Shown in pieces: positions 15,911 through 33,567 of a stretch of 64,000 nt of DNA. Below the pieces are notes generated by a model. It was not told the origin of the DNA, did no database searches, and saw nothing but the letters and a program-made list of their open reading frames with translations. Numbering within the stretch: the stretch's first letter is position 1; each line of letters opens with the position of its first letter. Source of the stretch: an uncultured Lachnospiraceae bacterium (lineage in GTDB: Bacteria > Bacillota > Clostridia > Lachnospirales > Lachnospiraceae); the NCBI GenBank assembly GCA_902789555.1, contig CADAOF010000011.1:1-64000 (forward strand), in the 5' to 3' direction. The translations under genes were made by a program, and so were the position numbers.

Positions 15911-15960
15911 TCTTTCTCAGCTCCGTTCCGCTTCGCTTCAAAGTCGCTTCGAAAGACATG
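15911..15960 (-). repeat. dispersed intergenic repeat, copy A
   Basis: The minus strand reads GCGACTTTGAAGCGAAGCGG followed by AACGGAGCTGAGAAAGA. The same sequence with one change occurs on the plus strand at 25978-26014. A second shared module (CCGGACGCGAGGCG) lies on the other side of the core here (about 15986-15999) compared with copy B (26047-26060). Both copies are directly upstream of genes. Confidence 0.75.
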
Positions 15961-16020: not shown

Positions 16021-16884
16021 TCAGTCCAGTCTTGCCTTGCCGCTGATCCTTGTGGCAGTCACTTCGCAGCCCTCAAGGAAGCAGGCAGCGTAGATGAGGC
16101 TCGGTCTGCCCATGGCTTCGCCCTGACGCACCGTGATCTCGTTCCAGCCGTCCGCAAGCGGGATCAGGCGGTGTCTGATCAGATAGGCTGAAAGGGCCGA
16201 GGCAGCAACGCCGGTCGCCGGATCTTCGGGGTAGCCCGCGCGGCAGGGGAACTGCCTTGCGCAGAAGAGGAAGGGGTCTGTTCCCGGTTCCTTCGCGTAA
16301 GGGTAAAAGCCTGTCGTTCCGTATTTGTCGCAAAGCGACCAGAGATATTCGTAATCGGGTTCGAGTGCATACACCGTTTCCTTATCGGCAAGCGGAACGA
16401 TCAGCTTGAAGCGCGAGGTGGCGGAGGATTCCACAGGCAGATCCGCGAGCTTGTCCGGGGTGATGTTTAACGCCCGGCAGAGCTCGTCTTTCGTGGGCGC
16501 CTCTTCCTTAACGCGCGGCAGGAACTGTGAAAGCGAGACCTTGACGGTGTCGCCGTCCATTTCCCAGTCGACGAGGACCTGGCCGAGGGCGGTCTCGAGC
16601 CGCACCGGGGAGGCGGTCACGCGCCCGGTCTTAACTAACACCGTCACGGCGCCGATCGTATCGTGGCTGCACATCTCCATCTCATGCAGCGGGACGAAAT
16701 AGCGGGCTTTGACGTCGCAGTCATCACGCGAAGGCTTCATCAGAAACACGGACTCCTCGCCGAAGCGGAAAGTCATCGCCTGCATTTCTTCCGTGGAGAG
16801 TTCGTCCGCATCCAGGGTCACGGGCGCGGGATTGCCGCCGCCCGGCTTTTCTTCAAATACGACGGAATGAACGGTTTTGTACAT
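16021..16884 (-). CDS. PhzF family isomerase/epimerase
   Basis: 287 residues of the diaminopimelate-epimerase-fold PhzF family. The general acid/base Glu44 is in GEESVF. Other family motifs are GGGNPAPV near the N-terminus, HDTIGA, and EDPATGVAASALSAYL in the second half. Family members isomerise small molecules (PhzF acts in phenazine synthesis), but no phenazine genes are nearby and the substrate is unknown. The start at 16884 follows GAGG by 7 bases; a GTG four codons upstream lacks a site. The gene lies downstream of dehydratase cluster 1 but is separated from it by a terminator. Confidence 0.85.
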   Translation of the reverse strand: MYKTVHSVVFEEKPGGGNPAPVTLDADELSTEEMQAMTFRFGEESVFLMKPSRDDCDVKARYFVPLHEMEMCSHDTIGAVTVLVKTGRVTASPVRLETALGQVLVDWEMDGDTVKVSLSQFLPRVKEEAPTKDELCRALNITPDKLADLPVESSATSRFKLIVPLADKETVYALEPDYEYLWSLCDKYGTTGFYPYAKEPGTDPFLFCARQFPCRAGYPEDPATGVAASALSAYLIRHRLIPLADGWNEITVRQGEAMGRPSLIYAACFLEGCEVTATRISGKARLD

Positions 16885-16951
16885 GGAAAGCCTCACTTAG
16901 ATGAAATCGTAAGAAAAGGATAGCATAATCGGCGGGCAAAGGCAAGAAGCC

Positions 16952-17263: not shown

Positions 17264-19015
17264 TTACCACGAATCGTTGTCATCGAAATCCAGCAGCGTG
17301 GGATCGAGCGGCTCTTCGTGCATGACGGTGAACATGTAGTCGTTGATGATCTGACGGATCTCGCGGCGGGAGACCGTGCGCTTATCCGGCAGCGCGTGCG
17401 GCAGCCAGATCGCGTGGATGTTCCGCTTGCGGAATTCGTCCTCGAACATGCCGTGGACGCCCTGCATGCCCTTGCACTGCAGCTGGTCGTACATCATGAC
17501 CATGTCGCAGTTGAAGCGCTCCATGTATTCCCAGAGCTTGAAGATGTGCTCGTGGCCGCCCACGGCCATCGCGCGCATGGGCGCCTTCTCGTTGAACCAG
17601 GTCAGGTCTTCCAGGGCGTGCTCGTAGGTGTCGGTGCGCAGCATCTGGTCGAACATCAGGGAGTCCATGTTGATGATGCAGTTGAGGCCCCAGCAGTTGT
17701 AGGCCCAGGTACACCAGTGTGAGTAGTAAAGCGGCGCGCAGCTCCAGGCGATCACGCGGTGGCGGGTCTTCGGGAAGGAATTGATCTTCTGCGTCACGCA
17801 CTTTTCGATGATGCGTTTGACCTTCCTGTCGACGAAGTGCCAAATGTCGCGGTCGCCGTCCTGCGAATAGTAGATGCGGTACAGCGCCTGCGCGACGCCG
17901 GTGATCGGGTAGTAGTCCGTGTTCGCGGCAACGTCCCATTTTTCATGCTCGAATTCGGTGAGCTTGTTGAAGGCTTCGGCGTGCCTTACGTATTCGTCCC
18001 AGTTCATCTTCTGGCCGGTCTGCTCCTCGATGAAGCGCCAGCAGCCTTCGATCTCTTCCTGGCAGTGCTTCTGCACGAGCGGATCGTCGTAGCGCATGGG
18101 CTGCGGCATGGCGTAGAGCGGGCGGTCGAGGAACCAGTCCTGCAGGATGGAGGTGCCCACGGAGCCGTCGCAGGCTTCGTTCGAGGTTACGACCACGGGG
18201 CTGTAGTCCGGAACGTCGTTCAGCACGAAGATGCCGGCTTCGGCCTGGCACATCGGGCAGGGGTCGCCAGGCAGGCCTATGGACTGGGCAGCGTCGATGT
18301 AATTTAGGACCGTGTGGTTGTTGACGTGGCAGGTGACGAAGTAGGGGATCATCTGCAGGGCCACGTCGTCCATGCGGTCGCGCCAGCCGTAGAAGATGTT
18401 TCCGGAAACGGTCTCGTCATGGGAAATCGTGTTCTTCCAGACTTCATTCCCTTCACCGTTGTAGCGCGTATCGGCCTTGAACATACGCATGAACTGGCGG
18501 ATGGTCTCACTGACCATGCCGCGGTAGTGCCAGGCGGAGGCCCGGAGTGCTTCCCCGCGCGTGCCTTCAAGGCCGCGGTCGAACCAGTGCATGACGGTGA
18601 GGTAGGTCTGGCCCATCCAGCGGTAGCGGAGAGTTCCCTGAAGGAACGGGACGAGGCCGCCGCCCTTCATGATGTCCATGACCATGTGCGCGTAGTTGTA
18701 CAGCCAGATATTATTGAAATAATACATGGTGTCCTTCACGCCGCGCCACTCGCGGTGCTTATAGAGGCCGGTGCCCGGGATGTAGAGGTCGCCGAGGCGG
18801 CGCTCTTCGTGCGGCTTGCCGTACATGAAATCGCGGGCGGTCTTCTTAACGTCGAGATTCTTGATCTTTTCCGCCGTGTCTTTCGCTTTCTGTTTGAAGT
18901 CGGTTGCTTTCAGCTTTTCGAGCTTTGCCGCGGCCGCTTCCTTTAGCTTCAGATCCTGCAGCCAGCCCTTGGAGAACAGGCGGATCTCTTTTGCTTCATT
19001 GGTCTTGTAGATCAT
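17264..19015 (-). CDS. 2-hydroxyacyl-CoA dehydratase-family long subunit (cluster 1)
   Basis: 583 residues, about 200 longer than ordinary HgdB/FldB-type subunits. A charged helical N-terminal extension (~80 residues) precedes a conserved core with GDPCPMCQAEAG, NEACDGSVGTS and late blocks (RVIAWSCAPLYYSHWCTWAY; QLQCKGMQG). Several of its Cys positions match the cluster 2 paralogue. Family enzymes remove water from (R)-2-hydroxyacyl-CoA via a ketyl radical using [4Fe-4S] clusters, or reduce benzoyl-CoA; the substrate here is unknown. The ATG overlaps the stop of the 402-residue subunit (ATGA) behind GGAGGTGA. No activator gene is present in this cluster. Confidence 0.8.
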   Translation of the reverse strand: MIYKTNEAKEIRLFSKGWLQDLKLKEAAAAKLEKLKATDFKQKAKDTAEKIKNLDVKKTARDFMYGKPHEERRLGDLYIPGTGLYKHREWRGVKDTMYYFNNIWLYNYAHMVMDIMKGGGLVPFLQGTLRYRWMGQTYLTVMHWFDRGLEGTRGEALRASAWHYRGMVSETIRQFMRMFKADTRYNGEGNEVWKNTISHDETVSGNIFYGWRDRMDDVALQMIPYFVTCHVNNHTVLNYIDAAQSIGLPGDPCPMCQAEAGIFVLNDVPDYSPVVVTSNEACDGSVGTSILQDWFLDRPLYAMPQPMRYDDPLVQKHCQEEIEGCWRFIEEQTGQKMNWDEYVRHAEAFNKLTEFEHEKWDVAANTDYYPITGVAQALYRIYYSQDGDRDIWHFVDRKVKRIIEKCVTQKINSFPKTRHRVIAWSCAPLYYSHWCTWAYNCWGLNCIINMDSLMFDQMLRTDTYEHALEDLTWFNEKAPMRAMAVGGHEHIFKLWEYMERFNCDMVMMYDQLQCKGMQGVHGMFEDEFRKRNIHAIWLPHALPDKRTVSRREIRQIINDYMFTVMHEEPLDPTLLDFDDNDSW

Positions 19016-20220
19016 GCTTCACCTCCGGATGCCTTCTGCTCCTGGGCAAGTTTCTTCAGTTCGATGCTCTCGACGAAGGCCTGGAAACGGGTCCTGAGCT
19101 GGCCGACGGCGTTGTTGACATATTCTTTTTCGATGGAGCAAACCGGGATGCCGTAGTCACGGTTCAGGACGATGGTGTCGATGGTCCGCTCGTAGCTCCA
19201 GTATTCGCAGAACTTCATCTGCGCGATGACGATGCCGTCCGCCTTGTATTCCTTCGCAAGATCCGCAAGATAGGCCTTGCGTTCCCGCATGACGTGCTGT
19301 TCCATGAAGCGCGGGCACTGGCTGTGTTCCAGATAGTGGCGGGCGATCGCGTAGAGCGGCGTTTCGCCTTCTTTAACAACGATGTCCTCGCGGCCGGGGA
19401 GAGAGCCGTAGCAGTGGCGGTCGGCAACCACCAGAGCGCCGCATTCCTCGATCAGCTTCGTGAAATCGGGGTCGTCTTCCTCGGAGCCGGCAAGGACCAC
19501 CTTGCAGCGCCACGAAGGCTTTTCATCGGGCTCGCGGGTCTTTAGCTGCTCCGCAATGTCGCGCAGCTTATCCATGATGAGGTACTTCGGGCAGACCTGC
19601 GTGATGAGCTGGATGATCTGGAATTCGCGCCCGGTGATGGTCGGATTGTCCAGTTTCCGGTATTCGCCGATCTCGCGGATCAGGCGGCAGAGCTCGTTGT
19701 GCTCTTCGATGGCCTTCATCAGCGCTTCGTCCGAAGTATCGATCCCGAAATGCTCACTGAGCTTATCCAGGACGTGCGCCTGCAGCTGGCGGGCGTAGTG
19801 GTCGACGGAGTTTTCGTTCTTCTTGAAGGGGACGTCGGTGAACTCGCAGAAGAAATCGGGGTTTTGGATGACGTCCATCCGCTGCAGATGCTCCTGGAAG
19901 CGGCAGGTGACGGTGCAGGTCTCGGTCGCCATCTCGGCGTCCAGAAAGTTGAAGCCGCCTTCCATGGCGCGCTCCAGAAGACAGCGGCCGTACATGCAGG
20001 TACGGTTGGTCATGTAGTAGGTCGCGATGTCCGGCGAAGTGCTCCGGGGCGCACGGAGGCGCACGGAGAAGCAGCCGGGGATGTCCAAAAGGACTTCCGG
20101 CATGAAGTTGCAGGTGTAGCCGAGGGCGCGTTTTCCCTCTTCCTTTGCCTGCCGGACCAGGTCGTTGCCTGCTTCCTGGAGCAGGTTTTCAAATTCGATG
20201 ATGTGTACTAGGTCACGCAC
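19012..20220 (-). CDS. 2-hydroxyacyl-CoA dehydratase-family short subunit (cluster 1)
   Basis: 402 residues, the usual size of HgdA/B and BcrB/C-type subunits. Cys-containing family blocks are visible: GYTCNFMPEVLLDIPGCFSV, NRTCMYGRCLLERAMEGGF, AGSEEDDPDFTKLIEECGAL, ADRHCYGSLPGRED and AQMKFCEYW. These Cys residues would bind the [4Fe-4S] cluster. It starts at GTG 20220, 7 bases after GGGAGG. It is the first gene of the operon, with a promoter and a perfect palindrome upstream (20270-20324). It is clearly paralogous to the 399-residue protein of cluster 2 over its whole length. Confidence 0.85.
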   Translation of the reverse strand: MRDLVHIIEFENLLQEAGNDLVRQAKEEGKRALGYTCNFMPEVLLDIPGCFSVRLRAPRSTSPDIATYYMTNRTCMYGRCLLERAMEGGFNFLDAEMATETCTVTCRFQEHLQRMDVIQNPDFFCEFTDVPFKKNENSVDHYARQLQAHVLDKLSEHFGIDTSDEALMKAIEEHNELCRLIREIGEYRKLDNPTITGREFQIIQLITQVCPKYLIMDKLRDIAEQLKTREPDEKPSWRCKVVLAGSEEDDPDFTKLIEECGALVVADRHCYGSLPGREDIVVKEGETPLYAIARHYLEHSQCPRFMEQHVMRERKAYLADLAKEYKADGIVIAQMKFCEYWSYERTIDTIVLNRDYGIPVCSIEKEYVNNAVGQLRTRFQAFVESIELKKLAQEQKASGGEA

Positions 20221-25000: not shown

Positions 25001-25029
25001 TTGACGAAAAGCGGCAATCGTGATACCTT
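25001..25029 (+). promoter_or_regulatory. candidate promoter of the CooC-like gene / cluster 2
   Basis: TTGACG (25001-25006), 17-base spacer, TACCTT (25024-25029), 38 bp before the CooC-like ATG and directly after the preceding terminator. Confidence 0.45.
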
Positions 25030-25067: not shown

Positions 25068-25826
25068 ATGCATCAGGCTAGTGTTATCGCGCTGACCGGC
25101 AAGGGCGGGGTCGGCAAGACGTCGCTGTCTGCCGCCATCGTGAGAGTTTTAACGGAAGCGCATCCTGAGGCGAAAATACTGGCGATCGACGCGGACCCGG
25201 CCATTGGCCTTTCCGTGGCTCTTGGCGTGGACGTAAAAGAAACGCTGGACGAGATCAGGCTGCGCGTCGCGAAGGACGTGACCGAAGGCCTGCAGGATAC
25301 GCAGGATATTCTCGCGGAAGCGAAATTCCGTATTTTCGAAGCGATGCAGGAACAGAAAGGCTTTGCCTTTTTAGCGATCGGGCGCCCCGAGGCGGCCGGC
25401 TGTTACTGCGCCATAAATACGTATCTCAGGCAGGTAATCAGCCTGCTCGTGAATGAATTCGACTACGTCGTCATCGACGGCGAGGCGGGCATCGAACAGA
25501 TCAACCGCCGCGTCATGGAGAAGGTGACGCATCTTCTGTGCGTCTCGGACCAGAGCCGGAAGGGCATCCAGATCATCTCCACGATCAAGGAGGTCTCGGA
25601 CAGCCTGGTCGCGGCCGATAAGGTCGGCGCGGTCTTAAACCGCGTGCTCCTGCCCGAGCGAATCACCGAGACCGAGATCGGCGGCGTCCCGCTCATCGCC
25701 GTCATCCCGCCGGATCCCGCCCACGCGGAAAACGACATCGAAGGAAAGAGCGTCTTCGACCTGCCTGACGACTCCGTCATCCTCGCCGGCGCAAGAGAGA
25801 TCCTGAGGAAAATGGAAATCTCATAA
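25068..25826 (+). CDS. CooC-type nickel-insertion ATPase (MinD/SIMIBI family)
   Basis: 252 residues behind AAGGAG. Deviant Walker A GKGGVGKTS starts at residue 11; LAIDADPAIGL is the Walker A'-like switch and VVIDGEAGIEQINR the Walker B region. The layout fits CooC/AcsF-type ATPases, which help load nickel into CO dehydrogenase or acetyl-CoA synthase. No CODH catalytic gene is in the window, but the genes downstream include an ACS-like protein and a CooT-type protein. It is separated from the dehydratase genes by 271 bp holding a dispersed repeat and a weak hairpin, so it may be a separate transcript. Confidence 0.8.
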   Translation: MHQASVIALTGKGGVGKTSLSAAIVRVLTEAHPEAKILAIDADPAIGLSVALGVDVKETLDEIRLRVAKDVTEGLQDTQDILAEAKFRIFEAMQEQKGFAFLAIGRPEAAGCYCAINTYLRQVISLLVNEFDYVVIDGEAGIEQINRRVMEKVTHLLCVSDQSRKGIQIISTIKEVSDSLVAADKVGAVLNRVLLPERITETEIGGVPLIAVIPPDPAHAENDIEGKSVFDLPDDSVILAGAREILRKMEIS

Positions 25827-25840
25827 AACTGCCGCCGCCC

Positions 25841-25863
25841 GGCGGACGCCCCGTCCGCCCTTT
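25841..25863 (+). terminator. weak hairpin after the CooC-like gene
   Basis: GGCGGAC / GTCCGCC stem with a 5-base loop followed by CTTTC; only a few Ts, so termination may be partial. Confidence 0.35.
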
Positions 25864-25965
25864 CACAGGACCTCAGTCCTGAAAAGGGAAAGGATGCGAT
25901 TAAGATTATCAGCGCCGAGCGCATCGGACATTTTTTGCTTTTCCTTACCGCGAGCGCGCCCGAAA

Positions 25966-26060
25966 TGTTCTTTTGAGGCGACTTTGAAGCGAAGCGGAAC
26001 GGAGCCGAGAAAGAATATTCGAGGCAGCGAGCAGGATAGCTTAAGTCCGGACGCGAGGCG
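25966..26060 (+). repeat. dispersed intergenic repeat, copy B
   Basis: Core GCGACTTTGAAGCGAAGCGG then AACGGAGCCGAGAAAGA at 25978-26014, one base different from copy A at 15911-15960 (opposite strand). The module CCGGACGCGAGGCG follows at 26047-26060. It lies in the leader of the dehydratase genes; an in-frame open stretch from 25894 into the gene runs through the repeat and is not taken as coding. Confidence 0.75.
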
Positions 26061-26097
26061 CAGCGAATACACGTACATTTTTAGGAAGGGAGGTCCT

Positions 26098-27297
26098 ATG
26101 AAAGATCTCAAATACCTGATCGAATTTGAAAACCTGCTGGAGGACGCGGACAACGCCCTGGTCCGGCAGGCGCAGGAGGAAGGAGGGATCGCGGTCGGCT
26201 ATACCTGCTACCACATGCCGGAAGTGCTCTGCAACGTGGGCAAGGCCTTCTCGGTGCGCATCCGCGCGCCGCGCACGGGCAGCATCGATATCGCCACCTA
26301 CTACATGTCCAACTACACCTGCGAGTACGCCAGGTCTCTGCTCGAGAGAGCGATCGAAGGCGGCTACCAGTTCCTGGATGCGTTAGCCGGCGTTGACGCC
26401 TGCTCCGCCATGAACCGCTGCTACGAGCACATGGAGATCCTGAACTGCAACACAAAGCCGAATTTCTTCGTCAGCCACTGTGACATCCCGTATAAGGTGG
26501 AAACTTATACCGTGGAGCAGATGCGCACCCAGATGCGGCTGCATCTCCTGGATGAGCTGACGGCGCGCTACGGCGTGGACACCTCCGACGAAGCCCTGCT
26601 GAAGGCTGTCGAGGAACACAACGAAGTCTGCCGCATCATCACCGAGATCGGCAACCTCAGGAAGCTGCCGAACCCGCCGGTCACCGGTTACGAATTCCAC
26701 GTGATCGTTCTGGCAAGCTACTGCTGCCCGAAGGCCCTCATCCTGCCGAAGCTCCGCGAAACGCTGGAGGAGATCAGGAACCGTGAAGTGGATGAAAAAC
26801 CGAAGTTCCGCGCAAGAGTCGCGGTGGTGGGCAGCGAGATCGACGACCTCGACTTCACCCGCCTGCTGGAAGATTCCGGCGCTCTGGTCGTGGCCGACCG
26901 CTACTGCTACGGCTCGACGCCCGGCCGCGAGGAGATCGTGATCAACGAAGGCGAGGACATCCTCACCCAGATCGTGCGGCACTACATGAAGACCTCCGAA
27001 TGCGCGCGCTACATGAGCGAAGAAAAGATCACGCAGCGCCGCGAGACGGCCGACCGCCTGGCCCGTGAATACGGCGCGGACGGCATCGTCTACGAGCAGA
27101 TGAAGTTCTGCGATTTCTGGGCCTTCGAGCGTCCGCTTGCCAGCCACATCCTGCACGATGAGTACGGCTGGCCGGTGCTGTCGATCGACCGTCCGTACAA
27201 CGTCCGCAACTCCGGACAGCTCCGCACCCGTTTCCAGGCCTTCGTGGAAGCACTGGAGATCAAGCGGATCCACGCGGAAGAGGAGGCAAGAGCATGA
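26098..27297 (+). CDS. 2-hydroxyacyl-CoA dehydratase-family short subunit (cluster 2)
   Basis: 399 residues from the ATG at 26098, 4 bases after GGGAGGT. Paralogue of the 402-residue protein of cluster 1 along its full length. Cys-bearing family blocks are conserved: GYTCYHMPEVLCNVGKAFSV, NYTCEYARSLLERAIEGGY, VGSEIDDLDFTRLLEDSGAL, ADRYCYGSTPGREE and EQMKFCDFWAFERP. It probably binds a [4Fe-4S] cluster and pairs with the long subunit, whose ATG overlaps its stop (ATGA). The substrate is unknown. The true start is fixed by the ribosome binding site and by alignment with cluster 1. Confidence 0.85.
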   Translation: MKDLKYLIEFENLLEDADNALVRQAQEEGGIAVGYTCYHMPEVLCNVGKAFSVRIRAPRTGSIDIATYYMSNYTCEYARSLLERAIEGGYQFLDALAGVDACSAMNRCYEHMEILNCNTKPNFFVSHCDIPYKVETYTVEQMRTQMRLHLLDELTARYGVDTSDEALLKAVEEHNEVCRIITEIGNLRKLPNPPVTGYEFHVIVLASYCCPKALILPKLRETLEEIRNREVDEKPKFRARVAVVGSEIDDLDFTRLLEDSGALVVADRYCYGSTPGREEIVINEGEDILTQIVRHYMKTSECARYMSEEKITQRRETADRLAREYGADGIVYEQMKFCDFWAFERPLASHILHDEYGWPVLSIDRPYNVRNSGQLRTRFQAFVEALEIKRIHAEEEARA

Positions 27298-29078
27298 GCA
27301 AGATCAAATATCCCGATCCGAAATTCTTCCGCATGAAGGACCATATTGACTGGAAGGCCCAGGCGGCAAACCTGAAGGAAGTCGGCGGCATCATCGGCGG
27401 CATGCTGAAGGAGACCGACTGGAAGGGCGTTGCCAAAGCCATGGGGAACGAATGGAAGGCCTTCGGCAAGCGCGCGAAGATGGAAGCCGGCCTGTTCGCG
27501 AAGATGACGAACGAAGAACGCCTGGATTGGCTCTTAAACGGTGAAAAGCAGCTCGGCAAGCTTTACCGGAACGGCAAGATGGCTACCGTCCGCCGCGAAT
27601 GGAGGGGCCTTAAGGACACCGCCTACGACTATTATGAATGGCTCCGCATGTGGGGAATGCTGCTTTCGACCTTCTCCAAGGACCTCATCCCGGCCCTGAA
27701 CGGCGCGGTCCACTATCGCTGGATGATCTCTTACTTCTGCTGCCATTCCTTCATGGACAAGAATACGCTCGGCCTGCGCGGCAACGCACTCAAGATGCAC
27801 CACGAGCTGATCTACGCGATCTTCCGCTACGTAGCGGAAAACCTGGTGCTCCTCATGAAGAGCGACGAAAAGAACGGCAACTCCACCGATCTTTCCAAGA
27901 AGATCGTACTGCTTGACGAAATGACCATGGCGCAGATCATGGCCGGCTTCCCGGATCTGGTAGGCATCCCGTATCAGCTGATGCCGGTGTTCCTGCTGTC
28001 CGAGATCGACCAGCTTGCCTGCATGCCGTACATCGACGCCGTCGAAAGCTACGGCCTGCCGTCCGACACCTGCCCGGTCCCGACCTCCGAATGCGGCGCC
28101 TGCGTCATCGACGCCCTGCCGCACATGGGCGCCTGCTTCATTTCCAGCTCGATGCCCTGCGACGGATCCGTCATGGCCTCGTCCTACACGAGCCGCCGCT
28201 TCAAGGATCTGCCGACCTACCACCTCTGCTTCCCGGTCCGCTACGAGGACGAATCCTCCATGCAGGCGGCCGTGGCAGACATCAAGGGCTGCATCAAATT
28301 TATCGAAGAGCAGACCGGTGCGAAATGGAGCTGGGACGCTTACTTCGCCGCCATGAAGCGCTTCAACAAGGAAACGCAGTATGAGCTGCAGAAGTGGGAA
28401 GTCAACCAGACGCCGTACCCGCAGCTGATCGGCCCGTGCTACGAGCTGTTCCGCAAGTGGAACTACGAGATGGACGGCGGCCTCGATCCGCGCATCCTGA
28501 ATACCTTCAAGAAGGTCGACAAGATCATGATGGAAGCGTATTCGAAGAAGGAAGAGCCGTGGCGCGGCAAGATGCGCCACCGCGCGATCGTCTGGAGCGT
28601 GCCGGCGCATTACTACGCCAACTTCTCCAACTGGCTGGCCAACTGCTGGGGCATCAACGTGCTCGTGGAAATGGAGAGCCTGAACTTCACGAAGCCGCTC
28701 GAGACCGAAGATCCTGAAGAAGCTTTGAAGGACATGGCGAGACTCTACGAGCGCATGGTCATGCGCCGTCACACGAACGGCGGCTACGACCACGTGCTGA
28801 CCGAACTCTGGCGCCAGGTCGAGATTTGGAAGCCGGACATCGTCATCATGTACCAGCACGTTTCCTGCAAGAACATGTCCACGCTGAACGGCCTCTTCGA
28901 CGATCAGGCGAGAGAACACGGCGTGCGCCTCATCTGGATCGAACACGACCTGATGGATCCGCGCACCGTTTCCCGCAAGGACATGCGCGCGAAGGTCAAC
29001 GAATACATGCGCACGGTCATGCGCGAAGAGCCGCTTGATCCGTCGCTCGTGGACTTCGAGGACGACGCCAGCTGGTAA
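27294..29078 (+). CDS. 2-hydroxyacyl-CoA dehydratase-family long subunit (cluster 2)
   Basis: 594 residues, again ~200 longer than standard HgdB-type subunits. The charged N-terminal ~95 residues are variable, then REWRGLKDTAYDYYEWL starts a region shared with cluster 1. Conserved spots include SDTCPVPTSECGACV, MPCDGSVMAS, IEEQTGAKWSWD, RAIVWSVPAHYYANFSNW and QHVSCKNMS, and both paralogues end in PLDP-S/T-L-V/L-D-F-x-x-D-x-SW. Shared Cys positions likely hold the Fe-S cluster. The paralogues are well diverged, so the two clusters probably act on different substrates. Confidence 0.8.
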   Translation: MSKIKYPDPKFFRMKDHIDWKAQAANLKEVGGIIGGMLKETDWKGVAKAMGNEWKAFGKRAKMEAGLFAKMTNEERLDWLLNGEKQLGKLYRNGKMATVRREWRGLKDTAYDYYEWLRMWGMLLSTFSKDLIPALNGAVHYRWMISYFCCHSFMDKNTLGLRGNALKMHHELIYAIFRYVAENLVLLMKSDEKNGNSTDLSKKIVLLDEMTMAQIMAGFPDLVGIPYQLMPVFLLSEIDQLACMPYIDAVESYGLPSDTCPVPTSECGACVIDALPHMGACFISSSMPCDGSVMASSYTSRRFKDLPTYHLCFPVRYEDESSMQAAVADIKGCIKFIEEQTGAKWSWDAYFAAMKRFNKETQYELQKWEVNQTPYPQLIGPCYELFRKWNYEMDGGLDPRILNTFKKVDKIMMEAYSKKEEPWRGKMRHRAIVWSVPAHYYANFSNWLANCWGINVLVEMESLNFTKPLETEDPEEALKDMARLYERMVMRRHTNGGYDHVLTELWRQVEIWKPDIVIMYQHVSCKNMSTLNGLFDDQAREHGVRLIWIEHDLMDPRTVSRKDMRAKVNEYMRTVMREEPLDPSLVDFEDDASW

Positions 29079-29207
29079 AGATCTTCCCTGTCATCCCGAC
29101 ACCCGGAGGGCGTGCCTTGTGCAGGCAGGCAAAGCCCGGCGAAGGAGAAGGCAGAGAGTGCTGACATAACGCATCTTTAATGAATCATATAAAGGAGAAT
29201 ATATATC

Positions 29208-30008
29208 ATGAAATATTTCGGCGGCTGCGACGTTGGGTCGACTTACACCAAGGCAGTGATCGTGGACGAGAACGGCAAGATCGTGGCGGATACCACGATG
29301 AAGAGCAAGATCAACGCGGAAGAATCCGCGAAGCTCGCGATGGCCGAGGTCCTGAAACAGGTCGGGCTGGAGAAGTCCGAAGACCTCGCCTACCTCATCG
29401 GCACCGGCTACGGCCGCAACAAGGTCCCGTTCGCGGATGAGAACATCTCCGAGATCTCCTGCCATGCCATGGGCGTGCACGTCACGAACCCGAACGTCAA
29501 GGCTATCATCGACATCGGCGGCCAGGACATCAAGGGTATTTCCATTGATGCCGACGGCACCGTAAAGAACTTTGCCATGAACGACAAATGCGCTGCCGGT
29601 ACCGGCCGTTTCTACGAAGCCATGGCGCGCTCCTTTGAGATGAGCCTTCCGGAATTCTCGAAGCTGTCCCTGAGCGCGAAGAACGTGATCCCGATCACCG
29701 CGCAGTGCACCGTGTTTGCGGAATCCGAAGTCATCACCCTGGTCGGTGAAGGCAAGCCCATGAACGAGATCGCGGCCGGCATCCAGATGGCTGTCGCAAA
29801 ACGCTGCTTCGTCATGAGCAAGAAGGCCGGCGCGACCGATTCCATCACCCTGACCGGCGGCTGCGCGAAGAACGACGGCCTGAAGGCAGCCATCGAGCAC
29901 GTGCTGAAGCTGAAGGTCGTCGACCTGGATACCGACCCGCAGCTGATGGGAGCGCTGGGCGCAGCGGAATATGCCCGTCAGAAAGGGATGGCGAAAAAGA
30001 CCGCCTGA
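29208..30008 (+). CDS. 2-hydroxyacyl-CoA dehydratase activator ATPase (HgdC/BadF-BcrA type)
   Basis: 266 residues, normal for HgdC/FldI activators. ASKHA ATPase motifs: GGCDVGSTYTKAVIVDENGK at the start, DIGGQDIKG in the middle and LTGGCAKNDGL near the end. The Cys in NDKCAAGTGRFYE and the Cys in ITAQCTVFAESEV are those that bridge the dimer through one [4Fe-4S] cluster. The homodimer hydrolyses ATP to push one low-potential electron into the dehydratase. It is the only activator in the window, so it may serve both clusters. It lies 129 bp after the long subunit. Confidence 0.9.
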   Translation: MKYFGGCDVGSTYTKAVIVDENGKIVADTTMKSKINAEESAKLAMAEVLKQVGLEKSEDLAYLIGTGYGRNKVPFADENISEISCHAMGVHVTNPNVKAIIDIGGQDIKGISIDADGTVKNFAMNDKCAAGTGRFYEAMARSFEMSLPEFSKLSLSAKNVIPITAQCTVFAESEVITLVGEGKPMNEIAAGIQMAVAKRCFVMSKKAGATDSITLTGGCAKNDGLKAAIEHVLKLKVVDLDTDPQLMGALGAAEYARQKGMAKKTA

Positions 30009-30026
30009 GCGTGAAAGGAAAAGCGC

Positions 30027-30194
30027 ATGAAAGAATTTTTCAAAGTACTGAAGGTGGTCCTGGGGATCCTGCTGGCCCTGTGCATCGTGCTTTTCGTGGT
30101 TTATTTCTGGAATCTCGATCAGAAGCTCATGGAATGGGCCTACCGCAGAGTCAACACCATCTTTGACCGGAAGAAGACAGACATCCGGTTCTAG
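30027..30194 (+). CDS. small single-helix membrane protein linked to 2-hydroxyacyl-CoA dehydratase (cluster 2)
   Basis: 55 residues, starting 18 bp after the activator, with GAAAGGAAAAGC before ATG. One membrane helix (residues ~8-28; VLKVVLGILLALCIVLFVVY), then FWNLDQKLMEWAYRRV and a basic tail. It has the same order (basic start, helix, aromatic-LD-x-KL) as the 73-residue protein of cluster 1. Because both dehydratase loci carry one, it is likely a real, overlooked component. Function unknown; membrane anchoring of the complex or electron donor is a hypothesis. Confidence 0.65.
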   Translation: MKEFFKVLKVVLGILLALCIVLFVVYFWNLDQKLMEWAYRRVNTIFDRKKTDIRF

Positions 30195-30199
30195 CGGCA

Positions 30200-30895
30200 A
30201 TGAAGCTATACGACGCGATAATCAATGCGACAAGGGACGCGGCAGGCGGCGCGAAGCGCCTGCCGGAAAGGCCCGCCTGGCCGGATCTCGGCCGGAGCGA
30301 GCTTGTGATGCAGCGGGACGCCGCCTTTGAACTGGGCGGCTCCGGCTGCCCGTCCGTCAACTATACCTGCGTGACCACGTCGGCGCTTCCGGGCGGCGAA
30401 GGGGTATTCCTGCTGGGCCGGGATCTTCCGGAACTGAAGAAGGATACGGCCTTTGCCCGCATCGTCGTGCTGCAGACGGAGGAGATCTCGGAGGATGACG
30501 AAGGCCACGACATGATCCGCTCGATGGAATACGTGCGCTATCACGTGTTTCCGACGGGCTACATGGTCCGCGTTTCCTCAACGAGTTACGAAGAGCAGGT
30601 CCGGGTAAGCAAAGAGGCTGTTAAGCGCGGGATAAATTTTGCTGCGGTCGGCGCCGCGTACCTCGAAAAGTACAGGGCGGTGAAGGGTGTTAAGGACGCG
30701 CAGATCGTTTTCATCACCGATGAAGCGGTGGTGAAAGCCCTGCAGCCGAACGCGAAGAAGGTCGAAGACATCACGAAGACCCTCTCGCACATTCTGGACG
30801 GTCTGCCCACGGACTGCAGCCACTGCACGCTGAAGCCGGTCTGCGACGAAGTCGAGGGCATGAAGGAAATGCACCTCGGAAGGAAGAAATCATGA
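30200..30895 (+). CDS. acetyl-CoA synthase A2-domain-like protein with C-x2-C-x5-C motif
   Basis: 231 residues, soluble. From about residue 40 the order of motifs resembles the middle (A2) domain of CdhC/AcsB: FELGGSG, then FLLGRDLPEL, then EYVRYHVFPTGYMVRVSST, EEQVRVSKEAVKRGINFAAV and IVFITDEAVVKAL. A Cys cluster follows at C206, C209, C215 (DCSHCTLKPVCDEVEG), roughly where acetyl-CoA synthase has the cysteines of its A-cluster cubane, but with shorter spacing and no CGC nickel motif. So it is not a functional acetyl-CoA synthase; it may bind a metal cluster. The resemblance is from memory of the family and is moderate. The stop overlaps the next start (ATGA). The ribosome binding site is weak. 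Confidence 0.5.
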   Translation: MKLYDAIINATRDAAGGAKRLPERPAWPDLGRSELVMQRDAAFELGGSGCPSVNYTCVTTSALPGGEGVFLLGRDLPELKKDTAFARIVVLQTEEISEDDEGHDMIRSMEYVRYHVFPTGYMVRVSSTSYEEQVRVSKEAVKRGINFAAVGAAYLEKYRAVKGVKDAQIVFITDEAVVKALQPNAKKVEDITKTLSHILDGLPTDCSHCTLKPVCDEVEGMKEMHLGRKKS

Positions 30896-31299
30896 AGTAT
30901 TGCCATCACGACTATCATGGGGAGCATGACCACGGACATCACCACGAGGGCTGCTGCCATGAGCATGAGCACGACCATGACCACTGCTGTCACGAGCATG
31001 AGCACCATCACGACGAGCCGGTAAGAGATCCCGCTTCCCTGGGCGACCTGGAGAAGGCGCGTATCCTTCTTTCTCACATGCTGGATCACAATCAGCATCA
31101 CGAAGAGGAACTGGCGGCGCTCGCGAAGCGCTTTACCGACGCCGGCGACGCGGCCGCGGCAAAGAAGATCCGCTCGGCCCGAGCCCGCATGGTGGAAGCC
31201 AATCTCGCCCTGATGGAGGCCGTGAGCCTCGCCGCACCGAAAGCGGAAGAGACCTCTCCGGCGGAGAAGGAGCCCGCAGCCCCGGGACAGGAGGCGTGA
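30892..31299 (+). CDS. His-rich metal-binding protein (CooJ-like)
   Basis: 135 residues. The first 40 hold 18 His and 5 Cys (blocks such as HDHGHHHEGCCHEHEHDHDH), an obvious Ni/Zn-binding segment. Residues ~50-105 are helical (EKARILLSHMLDHNQHHEEE, LAALAKRF), and the tail is Ala/Glu/Pro-rich. CooJ of Rhodospirillum rubrum also combines a His-rich stretch with helical parts and stores nickel for CO dehydrogenase, though its His-rich part is C-terminal. Together with CooC-like and CooT-like neighbours this suggests nickel handling. GGAAGGAAGAAATC lies before the ATG. Confidence 0.7.
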   Translation: MKYCHHDYHGEHDHGHHHEGCCHEHEHDHDHCCHEHEHHHDEPVRDPASLGDLEKARILLSHMLDHNQHHEEELAALAKRFTDAGDAAAAKKIRSARARMVEANLALMEAVSLAAPKAEETSPAEKEPAAPGQEA

Positions 31300-31300
31300 C

Positions 31301-31516
31301 ATGTGCCTTTCGAACGTTTACCGCGCCTCGGACCGTGAGCTCATCATGGAACTTGCGGCGCAGATCCGGCAGGAGGCGGGGTACGTCACCGTCCGCGACC
31401 TCTTCGGCGCTTCGAAGCGCATCCCCGGAAGCGTCGCATCCGTCGACCTCGAAAACAATGTAGTACTCATTCAGACGCAGGAGGCACCTGCGGATGTTAA
31501 AAAGGAGGTAATATGA
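31301..31516 (+). CDS. cooT: CooT-family nickel-binding protein
   Basis: 71 residues beginning MCLSNVYR; the Cys at position 2 is the nickel ligand in CooT. The core VTVRDLFGASKRIPGSVASV followed by DLENNVVLIQ matches the small beta-barrel family. CooT binds nickel and supports CO dehydrogenase maturation in R. rubrum. It starts 1 bp after the His-rich gene with GGAGG upstream, and its stop overlaps the enoate reductase start by 4 bp, so all are translationally coupled. Which enzyme receives the nickel is not evident in the window. Confidence 0.8.
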   Translation: MCLSNVYRASDRELIMELAAQIRQEAGYVTVRDLFGASKRIPGSVASVDLENNVVLIQTQEAPADVKKEVI

Positions 31517-33567
31517 AGCAGGAATACCAAGCATTATTCACCCCCTGGAAAGTCGGCAACCTGGAAATCAAGAACAGGATCGTGCTGGCACCCATGGGCG
31601 GCACCTGCATTTTCGGTTGGATGGAACCCAACCACTTTGACAAGGAGGCGGCAAAGCTCCTGAAGAACGTCGCCGACAACAATTGCGGTCTGGTCATCCC
31701 CGGCATCGCGCCTATCCGCGACGTGCTCGGCCGCATGTGGCTGTACCAGAACAAGGCGAAATTCAAAAAGCTCAAAGAGTTCATGGACGAGCTGCATAAG
31801 ACCGGCGCCAAGATGTTCATCCAGATGACCGCGGGCTTCGGCCGCTCCATGGCCCTGTCGGATGCCCTGGCGATGCTCGCCACCAACAAGGTCCTCGGCC
31901 GCATCGCGAGCCCCGTGATCGACGTCGAATACCTGACGGCTGCCCCGAGCGTGCTCCCGAACCGCTGGCACGACAAGGTCACCTGCCGTGAAGTGACGAA
32001 GAAGGAGATCGCGCAGATCGTCTATGCCTACGGCGAAACGGCCCGCCTGTGCAAGGAAGCCGGCGTCGACGGCGTGGAAGTGCACGCGGTGCATGAAGGC
32101 TATCTGCTTGACCAGTTCACGCTGAAATATACGAACCAGAGGAAGGACGAATATGGCGGATCCTTCGAGAACCGCTACCGCTTCGCCGTGGAGATCGTCC
32201 AGGAGATCAAGAAGAAATGCGGCAAGGACTTCCCGGTCTCGCTCCGCTATTCCGTCGTCTCCAAGACCAAGGCTTTCCGCGAAGGCGCGATGCCCGGCGA
32301 GGACTACATCGAGATCGGCCGCGACATGGAAGAGAGCGAGAAGGCTGCCAAGTACCTGCAGGATGCCGGCTACGACATGCTGAACTGCGATAACGGCACC
32401 TACGACGCCTGGTACTGGTCGCACCCGCCGCAGTACATGCCGCTCAACTGCAACCTTGAGGACGTTGAGCACATCAAGAAATTCGTGGATATCCCGGTAG
32501 TCTGCGCGGGCCGCATGCAGCCGAAGGACGGCGCTGCCGCAATCGAACGGGGCGGCATCGACGCCATGGCTGTGGGCCGTCAGTTCCTGGCCGACCCCGA
32601 ATGGGTCACCAAGCTCCTTGCGGACAAGGAAGAAGAGATCCGTCCGTGCATCGGCTGCCACGCCGCCTGCTTCAACCTGTCGAAGCACAACGGCACCGGC
32701 AACGATCAGGACTTCTCCGATACGCTCGGCATGTGCCGCTGCGCCATCAACCCGCCGTCCATGCAGTCGAACAAGTACAAGATCGTTCCGACCAAGCATC
32801 CGAAGCGTATCGCCATCATCGGCGGCGGCATCGGCGGCATGGAAGCGGCCAGAGTCCTGAAACTGCGCGGCCACTATCCGACCATTTACGAGAAGAGCGG
32901 CGAGCTCGGCGGCATTTTCATCGCGGCTGCAGCCCCGTCCTTCAAGGAAAACGATAAGAAGCTGATCGAATGGTTCAAGCTGCAGATGAAGGATCTGGAC
33001 ATCCCGGTGAAGTTGAATACCGAGGTGAAGGACCTGAATTCCCTGCTGGCCGACGAGATCATCATCGCCACCGGTACCACGCCGAAGAAGATCCCGATCC
33101 CGGGCGCCGAGCGCGCCATGGACGCGACGGAATACCTGCTCGGCGAGAAGGAAGTCGGCGACCACGTGGTCATCATCGGCGGCGGCCTGACCGGCTGCGA
33201 GATCACGCTCGACCTGTTCCGCAAGGGCAAACACCCGGCCATCGTGGAAATGATGAACGACCTGATGGCGGTGAAGAACCTGTGCCTTGCGAACTCCAGC
33301 TATCTGCGCGACTGCTTCAAGACCAACAACATCCCGGTCTTCCTGGAAGCGAAGACGAAGGAGATCGGCCCGGATTACGTGCTGGTTGAAGGCAAGGACA
33401 AGCGGCTGACGAAGGTCCCGGCGGATTCCGTCATCTTCTCGGTCGGCTACCGTCCGGCTCCGCTTGTCCCGGCCGGCAAGAACGTCCACCTCATCGGCGA
33501 CTGCAACAAGGTGGGGAACCTCCGCAGCGCCATCTGGGGCGCCTGGGACGTCGCCATGAAGCTGTAA
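31513..33567 (+). CDS. FldZ-type enoate reductase (FMN / [4Fe-4S] / FAD)
   Basis: 684 residues with the Old Yellow Enzyme plus disulfide-reductase-like fold of 2-enoate reductase, BaiCD/BaiH and FldZ. N-terminal FMN barrel (residues 1-370: FTPWKVGNLEIKNRIVLAPM; H191/H194 in EVHAVHEGYLLDQF; RYS; CAGRM). The [4Fe-4S] ligands are probably C379, C382, C386 and C408 or C410 (RPCIGCHAAC ... MCRCAINP). FAD/NAD domain from ~430 (IAIIGGGIGGMEAARVL; VVIIGGGLTGCE; HLIGDCNKVGNLRSAI). Such enzymes reduce activated C=C bonds with NADH and follow the dehydratase step in Stickland-type reductive pathways. Last gene of cluster 2. Confidence 0.85.
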   Translation: MKQEYQALFTPWKVGNLEIKNRIVLAPMGGTCIFGWMEPNHFDKEAAKLLKNVADNNCGLVIPGIAPIRDVLGRMWLYQNKAKFKKLKEFMDELHKTGAKMFIQMTAGFGRSMALSDALAMLATNKVLGRIASPVIDVEYLTAAPSVLPNRWHDKVTCREVTKKEIAQIVYAYGETARLCKEAGVDGVEVHAVHEGYLLDQFTLKYTNQRKDEYGGSFENRYRFAVEIVQEIKKKCGKDFPVSLRYSVVSKTKAFREGAMPGEDYIEIGRDMEESEKAAKYLQDAGYDMLNCDNGTYDAWYWSHPPQYMPLNCNLEDVEHIKKFVDIPVVCAGRMQPKDGAAAIERGGIDAMAVGRQFLADPEWVTKLLADKEEEIRPCIGCHAACFNLSKHNGTGNDQDFSDTLGMCRCAINPPSMQSNKYKIVPTKHPKRIAIIGGGIGGMEAARVLKLRGHYPTIYEKSGELGGIFIAAAAPSFKENDKKLIEWFKLQMKDLDIPVKLNTEVKDLNSLLADEIIIATGTTPKKIPIPGAERAMDATEYLLGEKEVGDHVVIIGGGLTGCEITLDLFRKGKHPAIVEMMNDLMAVKNLCLANSSYLRDCFKTNNIPVFLEAKTKEIGPDYVLVEGKDKRLTKVPADSVIFSVGYRPAPLVPAGKNVHLIGDCNKVGNLRSAIWGAWDVAMKL

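Follow-up and report, generated by a model that had tools for sequence, protein, structure and literature searches.

What enzyme is served by nickel-delivery genes of the carbon monoxide dehydrogenase/acetyl-CoA synthase (CODH/ACS) type when these lie in one operon with genes of the 2-hydroxyacyl-CoA dehydratase family? The question is raised by a nine-gene locus in a 64,000-nucleotide stretch of DNA (hereafter, the window) from an uncultured Lachnospiraceae bacterium. The window covers nearly the whole of its contig (CADAOF010000011.1, i.e. C11; 64,074 bases) and the genome comprises 2.26 Mb at 96.55% completeness. An original prediction, made from the sequence of the window, was of an undescribed enzyme combining nickel with low-potential dehydration or reduction. 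The gene set does point to an undescribed enzyme, which is probably nickel-dependent. With a confidence slightly above even, we favour a low-potential ATP-driven reductase of the class I benzoyl-CoA reductase/2-hydroxyacyl-CoA dehydratase superfamily that is served by CODH/ACS-type nickel delivery.

Gene content of the locus

Re-reading of the window sequence placed nine genes on one strand between positions 25068 and 33567:

25068..25826, plus strand: CooC-type ATPase (ATG at 25068, frame open from GTG at 25020) with a deviant Walker A and the metal-site motif C-Y-C
26098..27297, plus strand: HGDs, an HGD-D subunit with six invariant cysteines (37, 75, 102, 270, 302 and 338); predicted [8Fe-9S] carrier
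27294..29078, plus strand: HGDL, a long HGD-D subunit with invariant cysteines 260, 289 and 525; predicted to hold a catalytic [4Fe-4S] cluster
29208..30008, plus strand: ATP-driven activator (BcrAD_BadFG / CoA_E_activ; TIGR00241 217 bits, PF01869 195.8 bits)
30027..30194, plus strand: one-helix membrane peptide of 55 amino acids, without known family
30200..30895, plus strand: ACSL, a stand-alone acetyl-CoA-synthase A2-like protein of 231 amino acids with a C-terminal C206-x2-C209-x5-C215-D-E...H225
30892..31299, plus strand: His-rich small protein, CooJ-like by composition only
31301..31516, plus strand: CooT (PF10133 52.3 bits), nickel-binding Cys2 conserved
31513..33567, plus strand: flavoprotein of the OYE/enoate-reductase type (closest to the NCBIfam models BaiCD and long bilirubin reductase, reaching the cut-off of neither)

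Genes, order and strand agree with the original description and the families were mostly matched by Pfam or NCBIfam models. HGDs and HGDL scored 304.9 and 122.7 bits, respectively, for the HGD-D family (cut-off 28.4), and the activator exceeded the TIGR00241 cut-off of 125.4.

Co-occurrence of ACSL and HGDL and the position of CODH

Profile scans for ACSL, CODH, HGDL and CooT were each performed on 393 genomes of the order (a completeness of 90% was requested, and 388 were in addition ≤5% contaminated), which carried the same handles and were taken as one draw. The ACSL profile matched 44 genomes, i.e. 34 with ACSL proper and 10 with frames of AcsB length (712-722 amino acids, E 2e-6 to 1.4e-4). 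The HGDL profile, scored for at most three candidates per genome, matched 43, i.e. 34 strongly and nine weakly (partial matches in frames of 376-454 amino acids). With cuts that were chosen after the gap had been seen (best E < 1e-40 for ACSL and < 1e-190 for HGDL), the sets of genomes bearing ACSL and long HGDL were identical, being the same 34/393 genomes from 12 genera.

CODH (TIGR01702 over cut-off) was detected in 73/393 genomes, including five of the 34, where it lay on another contig (G144 and G317) or 87, 136 and 271 kb away (G174, G343 and G364). CODH was therefore never within 80 kb of the system, and 29 of the 34 genomes had none over cut-off, indicating that nickel-type genes accompany ACSL and HGDL without cooS, as the original prediction implied. 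The absence of a CODH subunit from the window was also borne out, and the genome itself, at 96.55% completeness, contained no prismane/CODH family match. A hidden CODH was rejected as the client on these grounds. A role of the nickel genes in supplying a CODH/ACS encoded elsewhere in the genome would suit the CODH/ACS-type families of CooC, CooT and the ACS A2 domain, and 10 of the 29 system genomes without CODH show weak matches of prismane type under the cut-off (E 1e-4 to 1e-9), which are probably hybrid cluster proteins. The genome counts make this explanation extremely improbable, as do the placing of all 10 genomes with AcsB-length frames outside the 34 and the distribution of CooT. CooT was found in 43/393 genomes, of which 28 had CODH without ACSL and 15 had ACSL without CODH; none had both and none had neither. 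Among the 15, CooT lay within 27 kb of ACSL in 13 and on another contig in two.

Conservation of the gene set in relatives

Of 61 relatives, counting the own genome, 11 carried ACSL; within the own genus it was present in 9/16 genomes. Some or all of the CooC, HGDs, HGDL and activator genes were near each of the other 10 ACSL loci, two of which (L023 and L025) are cut by contig ends. A collection scan supplied the best 80 of 438 relatives (tblastn E ≤ 1e-3; AcsB may be included), whose titles are of the Clostridia group, including cultured Butyrivibrio, except for L085, L103 (Candidatus), L104 (Bacillota only) and L105 (Bacteroidaceae). Forty of the 80 loci were well flanked (at least 9 kb upstream and at least 5 kb downstream). 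Around ACSL in these 40 loci, CooC was observed in 38 and HGDs, HGDL and the activator in 37 each, with all four together in 36, so that the clustering exceeds chance and the neighbourhood sought in relatives is conserved. The remaining genes were the OYE-type flavoprotein (35), CooT (30), the His-rich protein (28) and a second HGD-D pair, HGDs2 (30) and HGDL2 (29). The L105 contig, for all its Bacteroidaceae title, carries Clostridia-type CooC, HGDs, HGDL, activator and ACSL and is probably misbinned.

In a phylum sample of 343 genomes with 49 ACSL-profile matches, a short stand-alone ACSL occurred only in the own genome and in G602 (245-amino-acid frame, E 6.9e-37). The best matches of the other 47 were AcsB-like frames of 416-814 amino acids at E 1.4e-11 or weaker. 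The divergent G602 locus (L164), which lies outside the class, unites HGDs, a 466-amino-acid HGDL, two activators, ACSL and CooC, and retains the six HGDs cysteines, the three HGDL cysteines and the CooC C-x-C. The short HGDL of this locus indicates that the long N-terminus is dispensable for the set.

Nature of the HGDs/HGDL enzyme

The six HGDs cysteines (C37, C75, C102, C270, C302 and C338) were invariant in 21 sequences and align in PDB alignments with C36/73/100/263/293/327 of BzdN, which are ligands of its [8Fe-9S] cluster (PMC11971306). Among PDB entries, BzdN also matched HGDs best (E 3.6e-33). As read from the PDB alignments, cysteines stand at 6/6 of these ligand places in DCCP, 4/6 in HadC and 3/6 in MbdN. 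A complete set in HGDs versus 4/6 in HadC, the sole dehydratase compared, makes a Bzd-like reductase likelier than a dehydratase. On the aligned ligands, the original label 'dehydratase', given to a short and a long subunit, is probably wrong. Scores fell short of the cut-offs of both the BzdN model TIGR03190 (77.5 bits, cut-off 453.8) and the DCCP model NF040772 (136.5 bits, cut-off 350).

In HGDL, C260, C289 and C525 were invariant in 24 sequences. C260 aligns with C95 of BzdO and C289 is one column off C128; the pairing of C525 with C380 falls in a non-significant part of the alignment. The HGDL model (mean pLDDT 81.6) has the HGD-D fold. BzdO ranked first in the fold search (E 1.4e-11, TMt 0.72), with HadB at E 2.7e-11 (TMt up to 0.76); as both fit about equally, the fold favours neither a reductase nor a dehydratase.

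FldBC and FldZ are a pairing of dehydratase and enoate reductase in Stickland reduction. By analogy, the locus could code for a genuine 2-hydroxyacyl-CoA dehydratase and an enoate reductase acting after it, in which case the nickel genes would be passengers. That the operon unites an HGD-D pair with an activator and a flavoprotein of the OYE type is consistent with this arrangement, as is the fit of HadB to HGDL. We nevertheless judge it unlikely, given the ligand counts of HGDs and HadC, a score of 74.6 for NF052456 (cut-off 700) and the finding that the constant companion is ACSL and not the flavoprotein. Pfam/NCBIfam scans also gave no match to a CoA transferase model among the genes of the operon.

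ACSL

A protein resembling the ACS A2 domain, with three clustered cysteines, had been recognized in the original prediction, and the sequence and model comparisons agree with it. ACSL is the only match of the genome to CdhC (PF03598), at 21.3 bits and below the cut-off of 24. A profile search led to ACS chains (E 6e-8), the matched region being what we take to be the A2 domain. The ACSL model had a mean pLDDT of 85.1 and all of its 23 PDB fold matches at E ≤ 0.001 were ACS. A relation to ACS is therefore supported by both profile search and predicted fold. The tail C206-x2-C209-x5-C215-D-E...H225 was invariant in 38 sequences and also in a set of 40; ACSL of L164 retains C-x2-C-x5-C and the E. 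A forced global profile alignment, for which the ACS set was 18 frames (six of them short or partial), paired C206 and C209 of C206-x2-C209 with the first and second cysteine in the ACS C-x2-C-x8-C-x9-C, which is suggestive only of a correspondence between the ACSL tail and the A-cluster motif. Gene content, conservation, co-occurrence, conserved ligands and the ACS-type fold of the ACSL model are established by the comparisons of loci, genomes and models.

Nickel-type and accessory genes

AcsF loads ACS with nickel. The Walker A glycines/lysines and the C-x-C of CooC were kept in 60/60 aligned copies; a deviant Walker A and C-x-C have been described for Ch CooC-1 (PMC6006190). R. rubrum lacking CooC, CooT or CooJ requires added nickel for CODH-dependent growth (PMC6006190). 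CooT scored above the PF10133 cut-off of 27, and M1-C2 was present in 41/41 copies. The predicted His-rich protein is present and His-rich by composition, but no Pfam or NCBIfam model matched it, so that the name CooJ rests on composition; the corresponding label in L103 is likely a false positive. The helix peptide matched no Pfam model above its cut-off. Each of 63 gaps between activator and ACSL encoded a peptide carrying N-[LMF]-D-[QM]-K, the other 17 of the 80 loci being without such a pair.

These genes might also assist a nickel-free enzyme of the superfamily, with CooC and ACSL as an ATPase and a scaffold for Fe-S assembly or repair and with CooT and the His-rich protein as metal buffers. 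As CooT is missing from 19/34 system genomes, CooC and ACSL form the constant part, and CooC is possibly a chaperone; the R. rubrum protein is reported not to bind nickel tightly (PMC6006190). This alternative appears doubtful to us. The CooC metal site was kept in every aligned copy, and CooT was confined to genomes with CODH or the ACSL/HGDL system (43/43). Furthermore, in Escherichia coli carrying a plasmid for BzdNO, this protein obtained its clusters (PMC11971306), so that a double cubane alone seems not to need such helpers.

Proposed mechanism and its alternatives

For the favoured nickel-served reductase, the clusters, nickel, nickel site, electron flow and substrate are what we infer. 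The activator would hydrolyse ATP and drive electrons into the [8Fe-9S] cluster of HGDs, from which they would pass to an open-site [4Fe-4S] cluster of HGDL, the putative site of substrate reduction. The one-helix peptide could tether the complex to the membrane, and the flavoprotein could accept the product or recycle electrons. Nickel would be held by CooT and the His-rich protein and loaded by CooC using ATP. ACSL would receive the nickel via its C-x2-C-x5-C-D-E...H tail and then either pass it to the HGDL/HGDs clusters or carry it as a shared electron-transfer partner. As to the predicted combination of nickel with low-potential dehydration or reduction, the nickel-type genes do belong to the system, dehydration is doubtful on the HGDs and HadC ligands, and a nickel dependence of the enzyme itself is likely by inference.

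Several HGDs/HGDL pairs seem to share one set of ACSL and CooC. All 34 genomes had one ACSL gene each, with HGDL counts that reach at least three in a genome (G333 and G405 showed 2 and 3 ACSL pieces, respectively, in one 312-amino-acid frame). In L094-L096 and L098-L100, ACSL directly follows CooC with no HGD gene between them. Together these findings favour a shared role in maturation or as a carrier. Of 14 further genomes without HGDL near ACSL, 13 had one to nine HGDL matches elsewhere (some of them pieces) and G443 had none. Six to nine matches each (some pieces) were found in G435, G439, G440 and G442 (loci L096, L102, L104 and L107), an expansion of the HGDL family that suggests many substrates. 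Alternatively, ACSL could be a permanent part of the reductase complex, transferring electrons or binding substrate, rather than a maturation protein. This is a tentative possibility that deserves more weight than the nickel-free enzyme. It accords with the occurrence of ACSL in the same 34 genomes as HGDL and with the A2-type fold, and the single-copy count covers the 34 and not the genomes with up to nine HGDL matches. The excess of HGDL over ACSL within the 34 and the six loci with ACSL straight after CooC speak against it.

A more radical proposal sees in the set an ATP-driven, non-canonical equivalent of CODH/ACS: HGDs/HGDL with nickel in the open-site cluster would reduce CO2 or a different one-carbon or CoA-bound group, and acyl-CoA chemistry would involve ACSL. 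In 'Ca. Galacturonibacter soehngenii', CODH activity in enrichment extracts and incorporation of CO2 into the acetate carboxyl were described without cooS/acsB homologues (PMC7000372). The set could be the missing carbonyl-branch enzyme of such Lachnospiraceae, but we hold this to be very improbable.

Several observations weigh against the nickel-served reductase. ACSL is absent from 7/16 genomes of the own genus, marking the set as accessory, and CooT had no match in 19/34 system genomes; the flavoprotein is absent or of another kind in some lineages. The co-occurrence counts are drawn from related genomes, which are non-independent samples. CooC may be a folding chaperone for CODH, and some CooC proteins are reported to lack nickel binding (PMC6006190). 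ACSL has no A3 domain and ends soon after its C-x2-C-x5-C. Its cysteine motif falls in low-confidence residues of the model, the local ACSL/ACS alignment stops before the motif, leaving the A-cluster match solely to the forced global alignment, and ACSL of L164 lacks both D and H in this motif. Lastly, the HGDL fold suits HadB as well as BzdO, and MbdN, although from a benzoyl-CoA-type reductase, has only 3/6 ligands, showing that the ligand set does not map one-to-one on the reaction.

Further HGD-D and nickel-chaperone genes

The second HGD-D pair is encoded in the window upstream of the operon:

19012..20220, minus strand: HGDs2, a second six-cysteine HGD-D subunit (PF06050 296.9 bits)
17264..19015, minus strand: HGDL2, a second long HGD-D subunit (PF06050 89.2 bits), no activator adjoining

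The six cysteines of HGDs2 were present in 40/40 copies and C253, C282 and C514 of HGDL2 in 34/34. In relatives L019, L022 and L024, HGDs2 adjoins CooC in divergent orientation. A PhzF-like gene (16021-16896, minus strand) adjoins the pair in the window. A 28-base element occurs twice in opposite orientation with one mismatch, at 15921-15948 (minus) and at 25977-26004 (plus), the latter copy inside the gap between CooC and HGDs. It was found in none of 100 shuffles and is perhaps part of a small intergenic repeat. A promoter/terminator scan was uninformative (4 vs 2.8 and 13 vs 9.4 in shuffles). A separate HGD-D pair with its own activator lies elsewhere in the genome (L028:7945-11417, contig G000:C5), with no CooC, CooT or ACSL label in the 19.9 kb around it. 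No clear common neighbour that could hint at a substrate was seen near unlinked HGDs/HGDL pairs.

HypA was considered as a replacement nickel chaperone in genus g55 and rejected. A HypA gene follows ACSL in seven of nine such loci (L171, L172, L177 and L186-L189; PF01155 confirmed for L172 only); of the other two, L184 has a longer frame that includes the start motif and L185 has none. The gene before HypA, first labelled OYE (~30% identity), encodes a 960-980-amino-acid FAD oxidoreductase in the three loci measured, 52% identical to a protein of the own genome that is also beside HypA. Both appear IsrA-like from domains and neighbours. IsrA homologues usually carry HypA (PMC10134865), so that HypA in g55, which goes with the IsrA-like gene, is no independent support. 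The seven loci with HypA place two candidate nickel reductases side by side (IsrA-like in the three measured). HypA was also found in 5/6 of the CooT-less system genomes examined (none in G201) and in the own genome, a count that is not interpretable without a background sample. In the own genome (L191:2982-7753, i.e. G000:C1:54981-59752), the 1003-amino-acid FAD oxidoreductase is divergent from two GTPases, HypB-like by sequence, and HypA, a candidate second orphan nickel-chaperone set resembling the isoprene reductase operon.

Significance

No PMC title describing this gene set was found among the matches listed, subscription papers being mostly outside the search. The isr operon and acetogenic Lachnospiraceae without CODH came closest as parallels. 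An eLife 2026 study and a gut CODH survey start from CODH genes and would therefore miss the set. To our knowledge, there is no earlier case of nickel use in the benzoyl-CoA reductase/2-hydroxyacyl-CoA dehydratase superfamily; if nickel is confirmed, this would be the first, and in rumen and gut bacteria including cultured Butyrivibrio. Nine nickel enzymes were known to a 2018 review, which counts 111 CooT homologues and CODH in 85 of the CooT-containing proteomes (PMC6006190), implying that some CooT proteins have no known client. As every CODH-less CooT among the 393 genomes is in a genome with this system, the system is a testable client for orphan CooT.

Comparison with known systems

Bzd-type benzoyl-CoA reductase (BzdNOPQ) likewise has two HGD-D subunits, with six [8Fe-9S] ligands and three cysteines, respectively, and an ATP activator. 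It differs in having two activator genes (BzdP and BzdQ), as L164 does, versus one in the window operon, whereas HGDL has a long N-terminal extension and the equivalog cut-offs are unreached; CooC, ACSL, CooT and the helix peptide are unmentioned for Bzd in the available part of PMC11971306. DCCP shares the six cluster cysteines of HGDs and an activator of the same broad family, but forms a homodimer in which each monomer bears a double cubane (PMC11971306), unlike the heterodimeric gene pair with a three-cysteine HGDL described here. HadBC shares the HGD-D fold, a three-cysteine catalytic subunit and an ATP activator, but HadC lacks two of the six double-cubane ligands present in HGDs. CODH/ACS maturation is resembled in the CooC and CooT families with their metal residues and in the A2-type fold of ACSL; here, however, 29/34 bearers are without CODH over cut-off, there is no full ACS and ACSL has its own C-terminal cysteine motif. 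The isr operon of a putative isoprene reductase, for which nickel is proposed but unproven, encodes an FAD/NADH-type oxidoreductase and employs Hyp-type instead of Coo-type chaperones (PMC10134865). Its HypA and HypB genes beside a flavin/Fe-S reductase nevertheless provide a parallel to the locus, i.e. orphan nickel chaperones adjoining a reductase (PMC10134865).

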